This document shows positions 30,117 through 55,993 of a DNA stretch of 64,000 nucleotides, in pieces. Numbering within the stretch: the stretch's first letter is position 1; the number at the start of each line of letters is the position of its first letter. A model generated the notes under the pieces. It worked only from the letters and a program-made list of their open reading frames with translations. It was not told where the DNA came from and made no database searches. The stretch is taken from the NCBI GenBank assembly GCA_030066685.1, contig JASJBF010000032.1, forward strand, positions 62,001 through 126,000, in the 5' to 3' direction. This DNA is from Kiloniellales bacterium (lineage in GTDB: Bacteria > Pseudomonadota > Alphaproteobacteria > Kiloniellales > JAKSBE01). Made by a program: the position numbers and the translations under genes.

Positions 30117-31220
30117 TCAGGCGGCAAGCTGGTTCAACTTCTCCATCAGATAGTCGAGGTCGTCCGCCGCCAGGTCGTCGTACTGAGTCAGGATGCGCGA
30201 CAGCATGCGCGAGATGAAGCGCTCGCGGTCGTTGTCCTTGAGGTCGTAGTCGGTCTCCTGGATCACATCGACCGCGACCCGGATCGCCGGGAAGAGCTTC
30301 TCCGGCAGCCCGGTCTTGAGGTAGAGCGATTGCAGACCGAGCGAACCCTCGTCGTGGATCAGCAGCCTGGCGTTTTTCACGGGAATCTGCGCGAGGCGCG
30401 CCATCGCCGCCTCGAAGAAGGCGAGATCGCCCATGCAGAGCGCCCGCAGGACCAGCGAGGACGAGAGCCGGCCCTTCTTGTGAAGCTGGGCGACCAGGGT
30501 CTCGATATCGGTGACCGTCCGGCCGCTGGCCACCAGGTCGACGGTGGCCCGCTCTCGGGTCTGCAGGATCAGGTTGCAGATCTTGTCCGGGCTCAGGTTG
30601 CCTTCCTGGAGCAAAAAGGTCTCCAGCCGCTCCGAGATCGCGTTCACCACGCGCTCCGCCACATCGACCGGCATGTTGTTACGCCTGGAAAGTGAATCGG
30701 AGACGGCCTCGCTCTCGCCGTACTGGACCATGACCCGGTCGAAGGAGTTCTCGGTCAGTTCGGCGCCTTCGTTGGCGACCAGGCGCGCCACCGCCTTCTC
30801 GTTGCCGGTGTCGATCAGGCTGTCGGCGACCTGGGTGGATATCGTCCGGCGTTGCGCGATGGCAGTCTGCTTTTCGGAGTCCTGGCTCTGGATGATGTCG
30901 ATCAGGTCTTCGTCGGTCAGCACCTCCGAGGACTTGAGGATCGGCAGCGCTACGGAGGTCACGTCCTGCGCCAACTTCAGGGCGATGTCGTGGGACAGGC
31001 CCGCGGCCGCCTGCAGGTTCTTCGACAAAGACTCGCGGACTCGGACCGAGACGTCCTGAGCCATCAGCCGGAAGATCGCTTCGGCCTGCTCTCGTTCCGC
31101 GTCCGTCAGCTCGCCGTCGGCGAACTCGGCGGCGACCTTGCCGGCCGTTTCGGCCCGGGTTTCATCCGAGCTGTCCGCCACGAGGCGGGCGACATCTTCC
31201 TTGGTGAGTTTATGTGCCAT
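30117..31220 (-). CDS. DUF2336 domain protein
   Basis: A 367-residue soluble protein consisting of a DUF2336 region of repeated helices (HEAT-like in appearance). Characteristic segments are SVRVRESLSKNL, SSEVLTDEDLIDIIQS, LVANEGAELTENSFDRV and a C-terminal block LSSSLVLRALCMGDLAFFEAAM. The family is common in Rhodospirillales and uncharacterised; it often lies near signalling genes. The second family member at 50459 shares the ILxxSxxLTDxDLIxI block. An exact CtrA box lies about 100 bp upstream of this start, suggesting cell-cycle control. No ribosome site is obvious. Confidence 0.85.
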   Translation of the reverse strand: MAHKLTKEDVARLVADSSDETRAETAGKVAAEFADGELTDAEREQAEAIFRLMAQDVSVRVRESLSKNLQAAAGLSHDIALKLAQDVTSVALPILKSSEVLTDEDLIDIIQSQDSEKQTAIAQRRTISTQVADSLIDTGNEKAVARLVANEGAELTENSFDRVMVQYGESEAVSDSLSRRNNMPVDVAERVVNAISERLETFLLQEGNLSPDKICNLILQTRERATVDLVASGRTVTDIETLVAQLHKKGRLSSSLVLRALCMGDLAFFEAAMARLAQIPVKNARLLIHDEGSLGLQSLYLKTGLPEKLFPAIRVAVDVIQETDYDLKDNDRERFISRMLSRILTQYDDLAADDLDYLMEKLNQLAA

Positions 31221-48727: not shown

Positions 48728-50326
48728 ATGCGCATCGAGCTCTCCCCGCAACGCCTCCACGCCTTGGGACGCATCGCCGTCGTCGTCCTAACCGCGACGC
48801 TGGTCGCCGTGATCTTCGCCAACTTCCTGATGCCCACGTCCGGCGAGACAACCGGGACCGCGCTGCTCGACTCCTGGCCGCCGATCAGCGCCGCGACCGG
48901 CGCCGCCCTGGCCGCCAGCCTCGCCTGCCTTTGCGCCTTCATCCTCCTGGTCCGCCGCAATCGCGCCCTGGCGCGCCTGGCCCAGGCCAGCGAGGCTCTG
49001 GCCAACGGCGATTTCTCGATCGAGATCCCGGCCTGCGAGCGCAGCGACAACCTCGGCGTCGCCGCCCGCGCCATCGCCCTGATCCGCGCCCACGCCGAGG
49101 AATGGCGCAGCCGCAGCAAGCAGGACCGCGACCGTGCGGACAGCCTGGGCGCCCGCCTCGCCCGGCTCGAAGCGGCGCTGGACCAGAGCGACCAGGCCCT
49201 GGCGGTCATCGACCTCGACCTCAGGATCACCTTCTGCAACCGCCGCTTCCTGGAGAAGCTGGAGCTGCCCAACAGCTTCGCGGCCGGCCATGCGCGGCTC
49301 GAGAGCCTGCTCCTGCACGCGTCCGCCCGCGGGCTCGTGCCGGCCACCGAGGTCGAGAGCCAGATGGCCCGCTGGGCCGCCCTGGCGCGCCAGACCCAGC
49401 CGGGCCACAGCGTGCTGACCTGCGCCGACGGCACCCGCTTGGAGCTGCGCCTGAAGCCGAGTCCGAAGATCAGCCTGGTCCTGCTACATCGCGCGCCGGC
49501 GGCCAAGGCCGCCCGGCCCGCGGCAAGCGCCGTCGAGGCGACCCGGCCGCCCGCCGCGACGGTTGCGTCGGAGGCGACGGCGCCGGCCGCCGAAGCGGAG
49601 CCCCGCAAACCCGATCTGCCGGCGGCCACCTCGGCGCCGGACGAGGCGGTACGCGGCGGCCTGGCCGCAGAAACCCAGGCGCCAGACAGCTTGGCCAAGA
49701 AGCCCACGCCGGACCTCACCGAAGGCGCCGCCGCGCGCTCCGAAGCGACGCCGGCGCAAGAGACGGCCCAGCTTCCGCCGCCGCCTTCGGCGCTGGCGAG
49801 CACCGCGGCGCACCCCGCGGCGCGGCGCAACTTCCGCGTCCTCCTGGTCGAAGGCGACAAGTCGGCACAGCTGCAGGCGATCACGATCCTGGACAAGGCC
49901 GGCCACTGGGTCGACCTGACGACCAGCGGCCAGGAAGCCGTGAAGGCGATCGCCAGGCGCAGCTACGACGCCGTGCTGATCGAACTGGAGCTGAGCGACA
50001 TCTCCGGCTTCGACGTCGCGCGCCTCGCGCGGCGGCTGAACGGCCCCTCCGCGCAGGTGCCGATCATCGCCATGGTCGCGGACAGGATGCGTTTCGCGGA
50101 GTGCCTCGACGCCGGGATGGACGACATCCTGCTGAAGCCGCTCCGGGCGGAGGACGTGGCCCGCAAGCTCCAGAGCTGCATCGGTCCGGCGACCGGCCAG
50201 GCGCAGCTCTCCGGCTCTCCGGCCGCGGCCGCCGCGCCCGACTGCAGCCGGCGGGACGGTGCCCTCGGCGCCGCCGTCGCGGACCAGCCGGAAACCGCGA
50301 CCCTGCGCAGCGCGAGCGGCGGCTGA
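48728..50326 (+). CDS. Two-span HAMP-PAS protein with degenerate receiver domain
   Basis: A 532-residue membrane signalling protein. Two transmembrane helices (about residues 13-33 and 57-76) are followed by a HAMP-like linker, a PAS region with FCNRRFLEKLEL (about 150-255), a 110-residue Ala/Pro/Glu-rich linker and a C-terminal receiver fold (about 368-485). The receiver is degenerate: the phosphoacceptor aspartate is Glu419 (LIELELSDISG), the second acidic residue is Gly376 in LLVEGDK, and the switch threonine is Val450; only Lys470 is kept. It should therefore not be phosphorylated normally. No kinase domain is present. AAAGGAG lies upstream with slightly long spacing. Confidence 0.8.
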   Translation: MRIELSPQRLHALGRIAVVVLTATLVAVIFANFLMPTSGETTGTALLDSWPPISAATGAALAASLACLCAFILLVRRNRALARLAQASEALANGDFSIEIPACERSDNLGVAARAIALIRAHAEEWRSRSKQDRDRADSLGARLARLEAALDQSDQALAVIDLDLRITFCNRRFLEKLELPNSFAAGHARLESLLLHASARGLVPATEVESQMARWAALARQTQPGHSVLTCADGTRLELRLKPSPKISLVLLHRAPAAKAARPAASAVEATRPPAATVASEATAPAAEAEPRKPDLPAATSAPDEAVRGGLAAETQAPDSLAKKPTPDLTEGAAARSEATPAQETAQLPPPPSALASTAAHPAARRNFRVLLVEGDKSAQLQAITILDKAGHWVDLTTSGQEAVKAIARRSYDAVLIELELSDISGFDVARLARRLNGPSAQVPIIAMVADRMRFAECLDAGMDDILLKPLRAEDVARKLQSCIGPATGQAQLSGSPAAAAAPDCSRRDGALGAAVADQPETATLRSASGG

Positions 50327-50458: not shown

Positions 50459-53122
50459 ATGTCCCGCCTTGGGTTCGGACCCAGGAATTTCCGCTTTGGT
50501 TTGGCGTGCCTCGGTGTCGCTGTCGGCCTCTCAGCGCCGCTCGGAGCGGATCCGAGGCCGGAGGACCATCCTGCCGATGAGGCGGCCAGCGCCTCCGCTC
50601 CCTCGCAGCGGGTCGGCGCTGTCGCCGCGCGATCGGCCGAGGCCGATCAGCTTGCCGAGAAAAACGGAGGTCTCAGCGAAGCCGATCTGCGCCGTTCGAT
50701 CCACGAGGTCGGCCGGCTCGGCAGATTCTTCGCGCGCCTGGCGTCCTTAGACCCCGAAGCCGCACGGCGCAGCTATTGGCGAGACCTGCAGCTGGCCTAC
50801 GCCGCCACCGCCGACCGCCTCGCAGGCCTCCTCGACAGCGGCGGCCTGACCATCGCCGATCTCCCGGCGGGACAGAAAAGCGCACGCGGCGGGACCGGCA
50901 TCGTGGTCGACGCCACCCTTGACGGCACCTGGGGCACCGAGTCGCCGAACGGCAGCCCTGCAGCCGGCCAGGACGACTGGAGCCATAACCACCGCCTGAC
51001 CGTGGCGGCTTTCGAAGCCTTTGCCGGCCTGGAGGGCTACGACCGCTGGTTCTGGTTCGACGCCCACCTCAAGCGGTCGCCGACCGCGGGCGTGATGGAG
51101 CCGGGCAGCGAAGCGGTCGCCGGTCCCCTGCTGACCCGCTATTGGTTCGCCAAGGACGAGCACCTCCGGGCCACGGTCGCCGCCCGGGCGGCGGAAGGAC
51201 CGGGGTCTCGCGCGCTCTGGACGGTCCGCCGCGATGAGCTCGCGATCCAAGCCGGCCGGGCCGTCGAGCGGACCAAGGCCGAGCTCGGCGCGGCCTGGCA
51301 TGCTGCACTGGCGGCCAATTGGCAGCAGCAACTTGCGACGTCCGAGGCCGTGGCCGAGAGCCTCGCCGGGGCCGAGGTCCTGGCCGACTTGATTCCGGAG
51401 GCCCGGACCCAGGTCGTGGAAGACAGCCGGGACCCGGCCGGGACCGAAGAGATCGCGGTCCTGCGCGGCCGCCTCGCCGACCTTGAGGGCCGGATCGGCA
51501 AGCTCGACGCCCAGCTGCGGCAAAGCCGGGACGAGGCGAGCCGGCTGGAGACGGAGCTGGCCGCAGCACGCGATCGGGCCGGAGCGCGCGAGAACAGGGA
51601 CGACCGCTTGACCCGCGCCTATGCAGAGCTGGAGGCGGCGCAGCGCGCCGACCAGAGACGGCTTGCCGAGCTGGAGACGGAGCGCGCCGCGGAGCGCCGC
51701 CGCATCGCGGAGCTGGAGCAGAGCTTGTCGGCGATGCTCGCTCAGCTCGATGACAGCCGCAGCGAGATCGATCGCTATCAGAGCCAGATCCAGGAGAACC
51801 AGCAAGAGCTGAGCCGCTACCGCGACGAGATGCGCGCGACCGGCGAGGAGCTGTCGCGCTATCGCGAGGAACTGGACGCCGCCCAGGACCTGCAACCGGA
51901 ATCGGCCGTATCGCTGGTCCAGTCCCTCGGCAGCCGTCAAACCGCCGTGATCGGCTTGGCCGTTGTCTTGTTGCTGCTCTCGATGATGACCATCGCCCTT
52001 CTGCTGCGCCGGACCACGGCGGACGGTGTGGCGGCCCGGGCGCCGCTGGCCCAGGGCCGCGACGGAGAGGGACCACGTGACGGCCGACGCGCGGCGCCGA
52101 GCCGCCGGACCAGCCCGGAGCGCTCGGAGAGCGAAGCCCTGGCCGCACAGAAGGACCCGCCGCGCGATCGCCTTCTGGCTTTGGCGGGAGACCGGATCGA
52201 AGTCGCACTTCCGATACTGGTCCACAGCGCGGCGCTGACCGACGCCGACCTGATCGCTATCGTTCATGGCGCCACGACTCAGCATCGCATGGCGATCGCC
52301 ATGCGCCGCGGGCTCGGCGAGCGGGTGGTCGATGCCTTGGTCGAGGCCGCTGAGGTCAAGGTCGCTGCCGCGGTCCTGCAGAACGCCGCGGCAGAGATCA
52401 CGTCCGAGACCTACGGCAAGCTGGCCAGGCAGGCCGAAATTCAGCCCGCCTTGAAGGCGGCCCTCCTCGAGCGCCCCGGCCTGCCCGCGGCAATCCGGGC
52501 ACGCCTCTCGGGGCCCGAAGAGCCGGCCGCGCCGAGCGAAGCGCCACGGCCGGACCTGGCGGCCAAGCTGCAGGCGGCGGCCGCCGAGCTCGATGCCGCG
52601 GCCGCCGAGCAGGAAGCCGCGGAACGGAACCGAAAGGCAGCCGCAGCGACCACCACGGCCCGGGCGCAAGCCGGCCCCGAAGCGGCCGAAATCGCGCAAC
52701 CTGAAGAGCCGCCAGGAGGTGCGGCGCGCGATACGGCCGCCAGCGGCGAGGTGCCGCCCCACGCCCTGATCGAAGCCCTGCGCCAAGGCAAGATGGAGCT
52801 TTTCGAAGCGCTGTTCGGCAAGATGACCGGCCTGCGGCCGCCGCGCCTGCAACAGGTGGTCTACGGCGGCGGCGGCGAAAACCTGGCGGTCGCCTGCCGC
52901 GCGCTCGGGCTCGGCAAACCGATCATGACCTCGATCTTCATCTGGAGCCGCAAGGGCCGAGAAGACCTGGGTGCGGTGAACCCGCGCGAGCTGTCAAACG
53001 CCATGACCGCCTTCGACGCGACCTCGCCCGAAACGGCGCGGGAAACGGTCGCGGCCTGGATCGCCGGCGACGCCATCCCCGGCGAGTGGGACCCCAGGCT
53101 GCACGGCCCGGCGGCGGAATAG
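50459..53122 (+). CDS. Membrane coiled-coil protein with C-terminal DUF2336
   Basis: An 887-residue protein of unusual architecture. A signal peptide (about residues 11-30) leads into a periplasmic domain of about 300 residues, then a long heptad-rich coiled coil at about 330-478 (many Leu/Glu/Arg repeats), one transmembrane helix (496-516), a basic linker and a cytoplasmic DUF2336 region (about 570-870). The DUF2336 part shares IVLxSxxLTDxDLIxI-type and LIEALRQGKMELFEALFGKM-type blocks with the protein at 30117, but an Ala/Glu-rich insertion splits it at about 685-760. GGGGAG precedes the ATG. It lies between a pseudo-receiver gene and hpnN. Function unknown; the layout suggests a sensor or scaffold linking periplasm to cytoplasm. 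Confidence 0.85.
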   Translation: MSRLGFGPRNFRFGLACLGVAVGLSAPLGADPRPEDHPADEAASASAPSQRVGAVAARSAEADQLAEKNGGLSEADLRRSIHEVGRLGRFFARLASLDPEAARRSYWRDLQLAYAATADRLAGLLDSGGLTIADLPAGQKSARGGTGIVVDATLDGTWGTESPNGSPAAGQDDWSHNHRLTVAAFEAFAGLEGYDRWFWFDAHLKRSPTAGVMEPGSEAVAGPLLTRYWFAKDEHLRATVAARAAEGPGSRALWTVRRDELAIQAGRAVERTKAELGAAWHAALAANWQQQLATSEAVAESLAGAEVLADLIPEARTQVVEDSRDPAGTEEIAVLRGRLADLEGRIGKLDAQLRQSRDEASRLETELAAARDRAGARENRDDRLTRAYAELEAAQRADQRRLAELETERAAERRRIAELEQSLSAMLAQLDDSRSEIDRYQSQIQENQQELSRYRDEMRATGEELSRYREELDAAQDLQPESAVSLVQSLGSRQTAVIGLAVVLLLLSMMTIALLLRRTTADGVAARAPLAQGRDGEGPRDGRRAAPSRRTSPERSESEALAAQKDPPRDRLLALAGDRIEVALPILVHSAALTDADLIAIVHGATTQHRMAIAMRRGLGERVVDALVEAAEVKVAAAVLQNAAAEITSETYGKLARQAEIQPALKAALLERPGLPAAIRARLSGPEEPAAPSEAPRPDLAAKLQAAAAELDAAAAEQEAAERNRKAAAATTTARAQAGPEAAEIAQPEEPPGGAARDTAASGEVPPHALIEALRQGKMELFEALFGKMTGLRPPRLQQVVYGGGGENLAVACRALGLGKPIMTSIFIWSRKGREDLGAVNPRELSNAMTAFDATSPETARETVAAWIAGDAIPGEWDPRLHGPAAE

Positions 53123-53332: not shown

Positions 53333-55993
53333 GTGATCGAAAAGCTGGCCCAAAGGACGACCGCGGCACTGTCGGGGTGGGTCGGCCTGGTCTGCCGGCG
53401 GGCCTGGCTCGTGGTCCTCCTGGCGGTCGTCGCGACCGGCTTCTCGGCGACCTATACGGCCCGGAACTTCGCCATCAACACCGACACGCGGGACATGATC
53501 TCCAGCGAGGTCGACTTCCGCCGGAACGACGATGCCTTCGCCGCCGCCTTCCCGCAGTACGAGGACCTGATCGTCGCCGTGATCGACGGCCCGAACGCCG
53601 AGGCTGCCGAGGCCGCGGCCGAGCGGCTGACCTTGGCGATGGCGGCGCGCCCCGATCTCTTCACCGAACTGCGCCATCCCGGCGGCGAGGCCTTCTTCCG
53701 CGACAACGCCTTCCTATTCCTGAGCCTTCCGGCGCTCGCCGACCTGGCCGATCGCCTGGCCGGGGCGGAGCCGCTGCTCGGCGCCCTGAGCCAGGACATG
53801 AACCTGCGCGGCCTGTTCACGGTGCTGTCCCAGGCGCTCGACGGCGCCGCGGTGCTCGACGACACGGCCCCCCTGCCCGAGGTGCTGATTGCGATCGCGG
53901 GACAGAGCGACGCCACGGCCGGGGGCAGACCGGGCGCGCTGTCCTGGCGCGGCCTTCTGGCCGCGGATCCCTCAATGGCCTCCACGCGCAGCTTCGTGAC
54001 CACCCGGCCGGTCCTGGACCACGGCTCGTTGAAGCCGGCCGAGAAGCCGATCGCCGAGCTGCGCCGGCTGGCCGAAACCCTCGGGATCGATCGGAGTCAG
54101 GGCCTGCGGCTGCGCCTGACCGGCCCCGCCGCGCTGGACCACGAGGAGTTCGAGAGCGTCGAGGTCGGCGGCGCCACCGCCGGCCTGATCTCGCTCTGCG
54201 CCGTTGCGATCCTCCTGATCCTGGGCCTGCGGTCGGTCTCGCTGGTCTTCGCGACCATCACGACCCTACTGATCGGGCTGACTTGGACCGCGGCCTTCGC
54301 CATGGCGGCCATCGGCCACCTCAACATCATTTCGGTGGCCTTCGCGGTGCTCTTCGTCGGCCTGGGAGTCGATTTCGGCATCCACTTCGCGTTGCGGGCG
54401 CGCGAAGCCCTGGGTGAGACCGGGGGTGAGACCGGGGGTGAGACCGGCGACAAGATCGCGGCCCTGGAGCGGGCCGGCGCCAGCGTCGGCGGTGCGCTTG
54501 CCCTATCGGCCCTCTGTGCCGCCGTCGGATTTTTCGCCTTCCTGCCGACGAACTACAAGGGCCTGGCGGAACTGGGCCTGATCTCGGGCACCGGCATGTT
54601 CATCGCGCTCTTCGTCAACCTCACCCTGCTGCCCGCCCTGATGAGGCTGCTGCCCCTGCCGAAGGCGGCGGCGCGCGAAGCAGAGCAAGTCGGCGGCCCG
54701 ATCGAGCGCATGGTCCTGCGCCACGGGCGCGCGATCATCGTCCTGGCGTCCCTGACCGCGCTGGTCGGGCTGGCCGCCGCGCCCTTCGCACGCTTCGACT
54801 TCAATCCCCTGAACCTCAAGGACCCCGCGACCGAGTCCGTCGCCACCCTGCTGGAGCTGACCCGCGATCCCGCGAGCTCGCCCTACGCCATCGACATCCT
54901 GGCGCCGGACCTCGCGGCCGCACGGGGCATCGCCGCACGGCTCGACGCCCTGCCCGAAGTCAGCCACAGCCTGACCCTGTCGAGCTTCGTGCCGGAGGAA
55001 CAGGAGGCCAAGCTGGAGCTGATCGACGAGATCGCCCTCTTCATGGGTCCGGCCCTCGCATCCGGGCCGGCGCGCGAGACGCTCGACCCCGAGGCACGGT
55101 CGGCGACCCTGGCGTCCTTCCGGACGGACCTCGGCGATCTCCAGGCGGCCGGCGTGACCGATCCGGCGCTGGCAGGAGCCCTGGAAGGCCTGGCGGCAGC
55201 GCTCGACCGCCTGGCTGCGGCCCCGGGTGACGGCGCGACGGCGCTGGCCCGCCTCGAGGACCGCCTGCTGCGCCATCTGCCCAGGTCGCTCGACGACCTG
55301 CGCCGAGCGCTCGGCGCCCAGGCGGTGACCCTCGACGACCTGCCTTCGGCGCTACGCCGCGACTGGTTGACGGCCGAGGGCCGAGCCCGGATCCAGGTGC
55401 AGCCTCAAGGCGGCCTGGCCGACAACGTCGAGCTACGCCGCTTCGCCGAGGCGGTCCTGGCGGTCGAGCCGGCCGCCTCGGGCACGCCGGTGGTGATCAC
55501 CGAGGCCGGCAAGGCCGTGGTCCAGGCTTTCTTCGAAGCGAGCGGCCTCGCCCTGGCCGGCATACTGCTCCTGCTCGCCTTTGCCCTCAGGCGGCTCGAG
55601 GACGCCGCCCTGGTTCTGGCGCCCCTGGCGCTGGCGGCGGCGATCACCACCGCGGCCTCGGTGGCCTTCGGCCTGGCCTTCAACTTCGCCAACGTGATCG
55701 TCTTGCCGCTGCTGCTCGGCCTCGGCGTCGCCAGCGGTATCCACCTGGTGATGCGCCGACGCTACGAGCGCGACCAAAGCAAACTGCTGCGCACCAGCAC
55801 CTCGCGGGCGGTGATGTTCAGCGCCTTGACCACCATCGCCTCCTTCGGAAGCCTCGCCGTCTCCGGCCATCCCGGCATGACCAGCATGGGCCAGCTCCTG
55901 ACCATCGCGATCTCCAGCACGCTGATCTGCACCCTGATCGTCCTGCCCAGCCTGATGGCACGCCGCGCCGCGCCCGACCAGGCAGGTGCTTGA
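53333..55993 (+). CDS. hpnN: HpnN-type RND/MMPL transporter (hopanoid)
   Basis: An 886-residue RND-superfamily protein with two halves, each with a large periplasmic domain and a cluster of helices. It opens with the cytoplasmic start and first span, then NFAINTDTRDMISSEVDFRR, typical of HpnN proteins that move hopanoids to the outer membrane. The central span set has FVGLGVDFGIHFALRARE. Between residues 361 and 373 lies a GETG repeat encoded by three 12-bp copies. The start is GTG. The next gene (methyltransferase) begins about 14 bases after the stop. No squalene-hopene cyclase is in the window. Confidence 0.9.
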   Translation: MIEKLAQRTTAALSGWVGLVCRRAWLVVLLAVVATGFSATYTARNFAINTDTRDMISSEVDFRRNDDAFAAAFPQYEDLIVAVIDGPNAEAAEAAAERLTLAMAARPDLFTELRHPGGEAFFRDNAFLFLSLPALADLADRLAGAEPLLGALSQDMNLRGLFTVLSQALDGAAVLDDTAPLPEVLIAIAGQSDATAGGRPGALSWRGLLAADPSMASTRSFVTTRPVLDHGSLKPAEKPIAELRRLAETLGIDRSQGLRLRLTGPAALDHEEFESVEVGGATAGLISLCAVAILLILGLRSVSLVFATITTLLIGLTWTAAFAMAAIGHLNIISVAFAVLFVGLGVDFGIHFALRAREALGETGGETGGETGDKIAALERAGASVGGALALSALCAAVGFFAFLPTNYKGLAELGLISGTGMFIALFVNLTLLPALMRLLPLPKAAAREAEQVGGPIERMVLRHGRAIIVLASLTALVGLAAAPFARFDFNPLNLKDPATESVATLLELTRDPASSPYAIDILAPDLAAARGIAARLDALPEVSHSLTLSSFVPEEQEAKLELIDEIALFMGPALASGPARETLDPEARSATLASFRTDLGDLQAAGVTDPALAGALEGLAAALDRLAAAPGDGATALARLEDRLLRHLPRSLDDLRRALGAQAVTLDDLPSALRRDWLTAEGRARIQVQPQGGLADNVELRRFAEAVLAVEPAASGTPVVITEAGKAVVQAFFEASGLALAGILLLLAFALRRLEDAALVLAPLALAAAITTAASVAFGLAFNFANVIVLPLLLGLGVASGIHLVMRRRYERDQSKLLRTSTSRAVMFSALTTIASFGSLAVSGHPGMTSMGQLLTIAISSTLICTLIVLPSLMARRAAPDQAGA
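54413..54448. repeat. Tandem 12-bp repeats inside hpnN
   Basis: Three consecutive copies of GGTGAGACCGGG (the last ends in C), encoding three GETG units in a predicted cytoplasmic loop. Since 12 is a multiple of 3, change in copy number would keep the frame. Such in-frame repeats are prone to slippage. Confidence 0.8.

Follow-up and report, generated by a model that had tools for sequence, protein, structure and literature searches.

What does a DUF2336 region do when it is carried by a membrane protein? The question is raised by a gene at positions 50459..53122 of the window, the whole stretch of 64,000 nucleotides of a Kiloniellales genome that was analysed here; the gene and all of its parts lie on the plus strand. 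A preliminary description of the sequence had proposed that a coiled coil in the 887-residue product could relay a signal from the periplasm to DUF2336 inside the cell, which would make the protein a possible sensor or scaffold. We give about an even chance to the reading that it is an envelope-spanning tether, that is, a scaffold, and set out below the layout of the protein, its relatives and its gene neighbourhoods before weighing this reading against its alternatives.

Layout and conservation of the membrane protein

The gene opens with an ATG and the residues MSRLGFGP, identical in two congeneric genomes, and its pN/pS against the congeneric orthologue L070 is 0.43 overall (0.29 in the coiled coil, 0.33 in the DUF2336 N-module and 0.37 in the C-module). 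The conserved start and the overall ratio indicate a real gene under purifying selection. A promoter and terminator scan gave no signal above chance.

The order of parts that had been read from the sequence, namely an open reading frame with a signal peptide, a coiled coil, a single helix and a cytoplasmic DUF2336 region, is borne out. The signal peptide (residues 1–30; 50459..50548) is 87% identical in L070 and contains a hydrophobic stretch at about residues 10–28 followed by a cleavage site that, judged by eye, is plausible; a similar hydrophobic stretch stands at the start of the fully read orthologues. The coiled coil (residues ∼326–480; 51434..51898), whose length varies among orthologues, is recognized by a heptad score between N-domain and membrane above that of shuffled sequences (z 3.4) and by matches of SMC/Rad50 models to residues 325–482; heptad scores are weak in the orthologues L077, L080 and L059 (z 1.1–2.1). 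Matches to Pfam ThiN and to eukaryotic coiled-coil families in or beside this segment were weak and below cut-off, and were attributed to composition. The transmembrane helix (residues 496–516; 51944..52006) is the sole internal stretch with a Kyte–Doolittle mean above 2, peaking at 497–515, and has a net charge of −2 before it and +2 after it, placing the positive side inside. Signal peptide and flanking charges together predict an N-out/C-in topology. A poorly conserved cytoplasmic linker (residues 517–560; 52007..52138; 48% identity and pN/pS 0.68 against L070) leads to the DUF2336 region, and a short tail after the C-module closes the protein.

Some 300 residues had been assigned to a periplasmic domain. 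Such a region is present, but the conserved domain is narrower, covering residues ∼60–299 (50636..51355) as delimited by the alignment of orthologues and by AlphaFold2. There are 21 invariant columns in the alignment of 13 orthologues, and the model built from 12 aligned sequences (mean pLDDT 81, pTM 0.79) consists of long helices and, close to the invariant DLP and D..L.G.W residues, a small element of three strands. Comparison of the N-domain with Pfam and NCBIfam gave no family match, nor did a PDB sequence search with the N-domain profile; there was no LysM, SPOR or OmpA match in it and no recognizable ligand-binding motif, LysM being absent from Pfam and NCBIfam scans of the whole protein and of 13 N-domains. 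Foldseek and VIA-align comparisons with the PDB yielded no convincing relative of the N-domain (best E 0.56, best Z 5.5); the fold matches were scattered, unrelated helical proteins and demonstrate neither a new nor a known fold.

The architecture had been thought to be undescribed. Pfam and NCBIfam scans indeed returned no curated family with this arrangement, but it is not unique to the window, since a profile of the N-domain matches 15 of the 59 Kiloniellales genomes; among 385 alphaproteobacterial genomes it matches the window's own genome only. Orthologues that combine signal peptide, N-domain, coiled coil, transmembrane helix, linker and C-module are found in four family-level groups of the order. 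As judged by sequence comparison, the membrane DUF2336 proteins are a lineage-restricted orthologous family. In most members, DUF2336 is represented by its final ∼100 residues alone, the C-module, and the N-module is limited to the window's genus. The 12 fully read orthologues are 753–1025 aa long, with 197–491 residues between N-domain and transmembrane helix and 72–275 aa between that helix and the C-module, and 10 of them have a low-complexity segment of 72–173 residues in the latter interval. In the other family-level groups, the transmembrane helix is followed by this low-complexity leash and then directly by the C-module. In one orthologue (L075:6860-9937), the periplasmic stalk has grown to ∼490 residues through imperfect repeats (VAALQAQVSELDAAQ).

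The DUF2336 region and its soluble relatives

The Pfam model of DUF2336 (PF10098) matches the C-terminal part in two stretches, with E=2.1e-41 and 142.6 bits against a gathering score of 34.6. In a search of the protein's own whole genome, residues 582–683 correspond to model positions 1–102 and residues ∼698–864 to positions 96–261, and both halves are above cut-off. The N-module (residues 561–684; 52139..52510) is modelled as an alpha-solenoid like those of HEAT, ARM and LRV repeats. Solenoid matches fill the list from a fold search with the cytoplasmic part, and among them the match of the N-module to 1lrv (Z 7.4, rmsd 3.3, 116 residues) is tied with many others. The C-module (residues 767–868; 52757..53062), a small all-helical domain in the model, is 85% identical within the genus (L070) and 38–44% identical to that of Pelagibius-type orthologues, and is the part kept in all complete orthologues. 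A PDB sequence search with the cytoplasmic part gave no match; the model of this part has a pLDDT of 78 and a pTM of 0.42, with low confidence in parts of the segment between the two modules.

That segment (residues 685–766; 52511..52756), 35% Ala and 15% Glu, had been described as an insertion that splits DUF2336. It does separate the two modules, but alignment with soluble paralogues, in which residues from ∼705 take the place of the helices LWVAAALRSHLLE..., shows that for the most part it replaces the middle helices of DUF2336 in degenerate form and adds ∼15 residues. The region falls short of a full-length DUF2336, in which the solenoid part, the middle helices and the C-module would all be intact, because the middle helices have degenerated; also missing are the ∼65 residues with which DUF2336 proteins usually begin.

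In a sample of 144 alphaproteobacterial genomes, 77 contained DUF2336, often several times per genome, and the window's genome encodes eight such proteins (nine matches). The view that a membrane-bound DUF2336 is unusual is upheld: no candidate membrane helix is present in any of 18 other DUF2336 open reading frames, a selection that spans the class and favours long frames. In the collection of papers searched, none came up under the name ‘DUF2336’. The one member known to us to have been studied is SpbR, in work on Caulobacter (Wang and Bowman, 2019, as cited in PMC12700997).

The second DUF2336 gene of the window (30117..31220, minus strand) encodes a soluble protein of a distant subfamily, as had been noted for its solubility. 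The accompanying statement that DUF2336 proteins are without known role does not apply to it: it scores 467.8 bits against the SpbR equivalog NF052659 (∼358 positions), above the cut-off of 400 bits, and so is an SpbR orthologue and not an ‘unknown’ DUF2336. The membrane protein belongs to the same Pfam family, and its residues 558–684 align to positions 62–188 of the SpbR model (E=3e-21), with a score of 75.9 bits that is below the cut-off; SpbR is soluble and ∼360 aa long, whereas the membrane protein adds a periplasmic domain, a coiled coil and a transmembrane helix. A tree of C-modules, which separates SpbR-type proteins from the rest and leaves the branching order inside the rest unresolved, places the 30117 protein outside a well-supported group of membrane, kinase-linked soluble and ParA-linked proteins.

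Taken as a whole, the cytoplasmic part is closest to the soluble, kinase-linked DUF2336 of Kiloniellales (for example G000:C10, L122:4050-5174), which is 35% identical over residues 551–868 and the C-module of which lies within the same large clade. It differs from the membrane protein in being soluble, in retaining both the ∼65 N-terminal residues and an undegenerated middle, and in having a PAS-histidine kinase gene after its own.

Gene neighbourhoods

The gene that precedes the window gene by 132 bp (48728..50326, plus strand) encodes a protein with PAS_7 and receiver domains and a weak HAMP match, and the two genes are neighbours in each of the genus's three genomes. Downstream lies hpnN (53333..55993, plus strand), which encodes a hopanoid RND transporter (TIGR03480, E=4e-289; synteny), and the three genes keep this order across the genus. 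Directly upstream of the membrane orthologue in L082 and L083 is a gene whose product has a HisKA match and is homologous to the kinases encoded beside soluble DUF2336 genes, with E values mostly between 1e-29 and 1e-38. In Pelagibius-type genomes, mtgA directly follows the membrane gene and matches the peptidoglycan transglycosylase family; on the other side of the membrane gene lies a transporter operon identified by eye as thiBPQ-like. The neighbours differ by lineage: two lineages have two-component genes, one has thiBPQ/mtgA, and L079 has neither.

The association with kinases is most regular around the nearest soluble paralogue. Its 30 loci carry soluble-looking DUF2336 proteins, and at 29 of them, which are related by descent and do not amount to 29 independent events, a gene for a PAS-HisKA-HATPase kinase follows directly on the same strand; as a control, the 305 genes of 38 other loci contained a single kinase-like match. 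The pair is found throughout the order (L122:2509-5174, L123, L124 and loci L025-L051), and we know of no description of it. A signalling gene also adjoins another DUF2336 gene of the window's genome (L003:1396-3686), which comes directly after a gene for a GAF-GGDEF protein (diguanylate cyclase).

A profile built from membrane proteins only also detected stand-alone C-module proteins. In all six genomes that have one, three of the window's own genus and three of another family, the gene adjoins one for a ParA-like protein, which in turn is oriented divergently to a mipZ homologue. These proteins stand after the ParA-like gene (L085:2455-5169, which is C53 of the window's genome, and L065, L066, L069, L103 and L104), and those of L065, L066 and L069 start with a short basic motif (A-SLT/S-LL) resembling the one in the ParA-adjacent protein of the canonical mipZ locus L102. 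The second-copy mipZ loci of other genera (L086-L100, L105) have no significant C-module, and the ParA/MipZ link is therefore limited to six genomes of two families.

A proposed tether and its alternatives

From these data we infer how the window protein may work. As an envelope-spanning tether, it would be held at the pole or septum by its N-domain, which would bind a fixed periplasmic target such as peptidoglycan, an outer-membrane protein or a division or pole protein. The coiled-coil stalk, of adjustable length, would hold the N-domain off the membrane and cluster the protein, and the flexible, Ala/Glu/Pro-rich leash would present the C-module as a dock for cytoplasmic partners; in the window's genus, the HEAT/LRV-like N-module would join the C-module in the docking site. 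The best-supported candidate partners are two-component proteins (PAS-histidine kinases and PAS-receiver proteins), possibly with ParA/MipZ-type positioning ATPases, and the docked partners would gather at the pole or division site. Because the kinase and ParA links are mostly those of soluble relatives, they are carried to the membrane form by homology. The lineage-dependent neighbourhoods, the N-domain's want of a recognized ligand-binding motif and the weak heptads of three orthologues all count against a tether.

The main competitor is a transmembrane sensor, in which a ligand-induced change in the N-domain would be relayed through coiled coil and membrane helix to DUF2336, which would act on the adjacent PAS-receiver protein or in trans on a PAS-kinase. 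The predicted topology with a coiled coil adjoining the membrane helix, the PAS-receiver neighbour conserved in the genus, the PAS-kinase-type neighbour in L082 and L083 and the pairing of soluble relatives with PAS-kinases are all consistent with this. Nevertheless, the spacer between N-domain and membrane varies 2.5-fold and a low-complexity leash intervenes between membrane and C-module, so that no path of fixed length is conserved from periplasm to cytoplasm; a Pfam scan of the protein itself also found neither HAMP or another signal-converting domain nor an output domain for signalling such as HisKA. Spacers that vary on both sides of the membrane fit a tether better than a rigid transmitter. 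We therefore prefer the tether to a conformational sensor, which we regard as possible and rather unlikely, and of the earlier proposal the scaffold half is plausible, while the passage of a signal along the coiled coil is not supported. Signalling by clustering may be compatible with variable spacers.

The invariant columns of the N-domain, mtgA after the Pelagibius-type genes and hpnN after the window gene might instead point to a structural or cell-wall protein of the envelope, with N-domain and stalk working in the periplasm, for example in peptidoglycan synthesis or lipid transport, and DUF2336 merely anchoring or localizing it. We consider this distinctly unlikely: no other folded part is as well conserved within the genus as the C-module, which shares a clade with the kinase-linked and the ParA-linked proteins, while the N-domain has neither an enzyme family nor a clear fold match. 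Least probable of all, in our judgement, is a lineage-specific fusion in which DUF2336 parts were recombined onto a coiled-coil membrane protein and are now drifting with no specialized role. The confinement of the N-module to one genus, the degenerate middle of DUF2336 and the restricted distribution would be expected from such an event, but pN/pS is well below 1 in every domain and the architecture has been retained across four family-level groups.

Proteins that work in the way proposed for this tether are known among polar scaffolds. HubP/FimV, polar landmarks of gammaproteobacteria, are bitopic; their periplasmic part binds peptidoglycan, and their cytoplasmic part is unstructured and of variable size (PMC12918733). 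The window protein resembles them in having a signal peptide, a periplasmic domain, one transmembrane helix, a low-complexity cytoplasmic region of variable size and a C-terminal helical domain, features that in the window protein are predicted from sequence only. HubP/FimV also localize to the pole and bind clients such as ParA-type ATPases; for the window protein, the ParA and MipZ genes beside C-module homologues are no more than an indirect hint in that direction. The analogy is one of layout, however, as LysM is absent, the coiled coil is periplasmic, no FimV/TPR model matches and the C-terminus is a DUF2336 C-module. PodJ, the pole scaffold of Caulobacter, takes the histidine kinase PleC to the pole (PMC9684454) and is likewise bitopic, with coiled coil, disordered region and periplasmic part. 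Its polarity is opposite, with N-terminus and coiled coils in the cytoplasm and a C-terminal periplasmic part that has a peptidoglycan-binding domain (PMC9684454), and it lacks DUF2336, whereas the signal peptide and coiled coil of the window protein are N-terminal of the membrane helix. The window protein belongs to neither group.

A membrane-anchored DUF2336 whose relatives have recurrent PAS-kinase and ParA/MipZ neighbours offers concrete candidate binding partners. A broader conjecture is that DUF2336 C-modules are a docking domain common to soluble kinase partners, ParA/MipZ adaptors and the membrane protein, so that a landmark at the pole or septum, anchored in the cell wall by a new periplasmic domain, would be coupled both to a PAS-kinase pathway and to ParA-type positioning in one alphaproteobacterial system. 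It rests on gene neighbourhood, and we consider it a long shot that is worth an experiment; if the docking idea is true, the Alphaproteobacteria, in which cell polarity and two-component signalling are closely connected, would gain a landmark or scaffold of new make-up.

Canonical mipZ loci were also examined for a C-module; none was present, and a SPOR-domain protein is found there instead. The protein in question, beside the ParA-like gene and canonical mipZ (L101:5139-6734, L102:2271-4349), has an N-terminal cytoplasmic motif, one transmembrane helix (by eye) and a C-terminal SPOR domain (tested in L101), and is possibly a membrane or septum adaptor for the ParA-like ATPase. A conserved protein of ∼170–190 aa (L101:3711-4223, a copy without Pfam match, and L102:5446-6012) adjoins mipZ at both loci.
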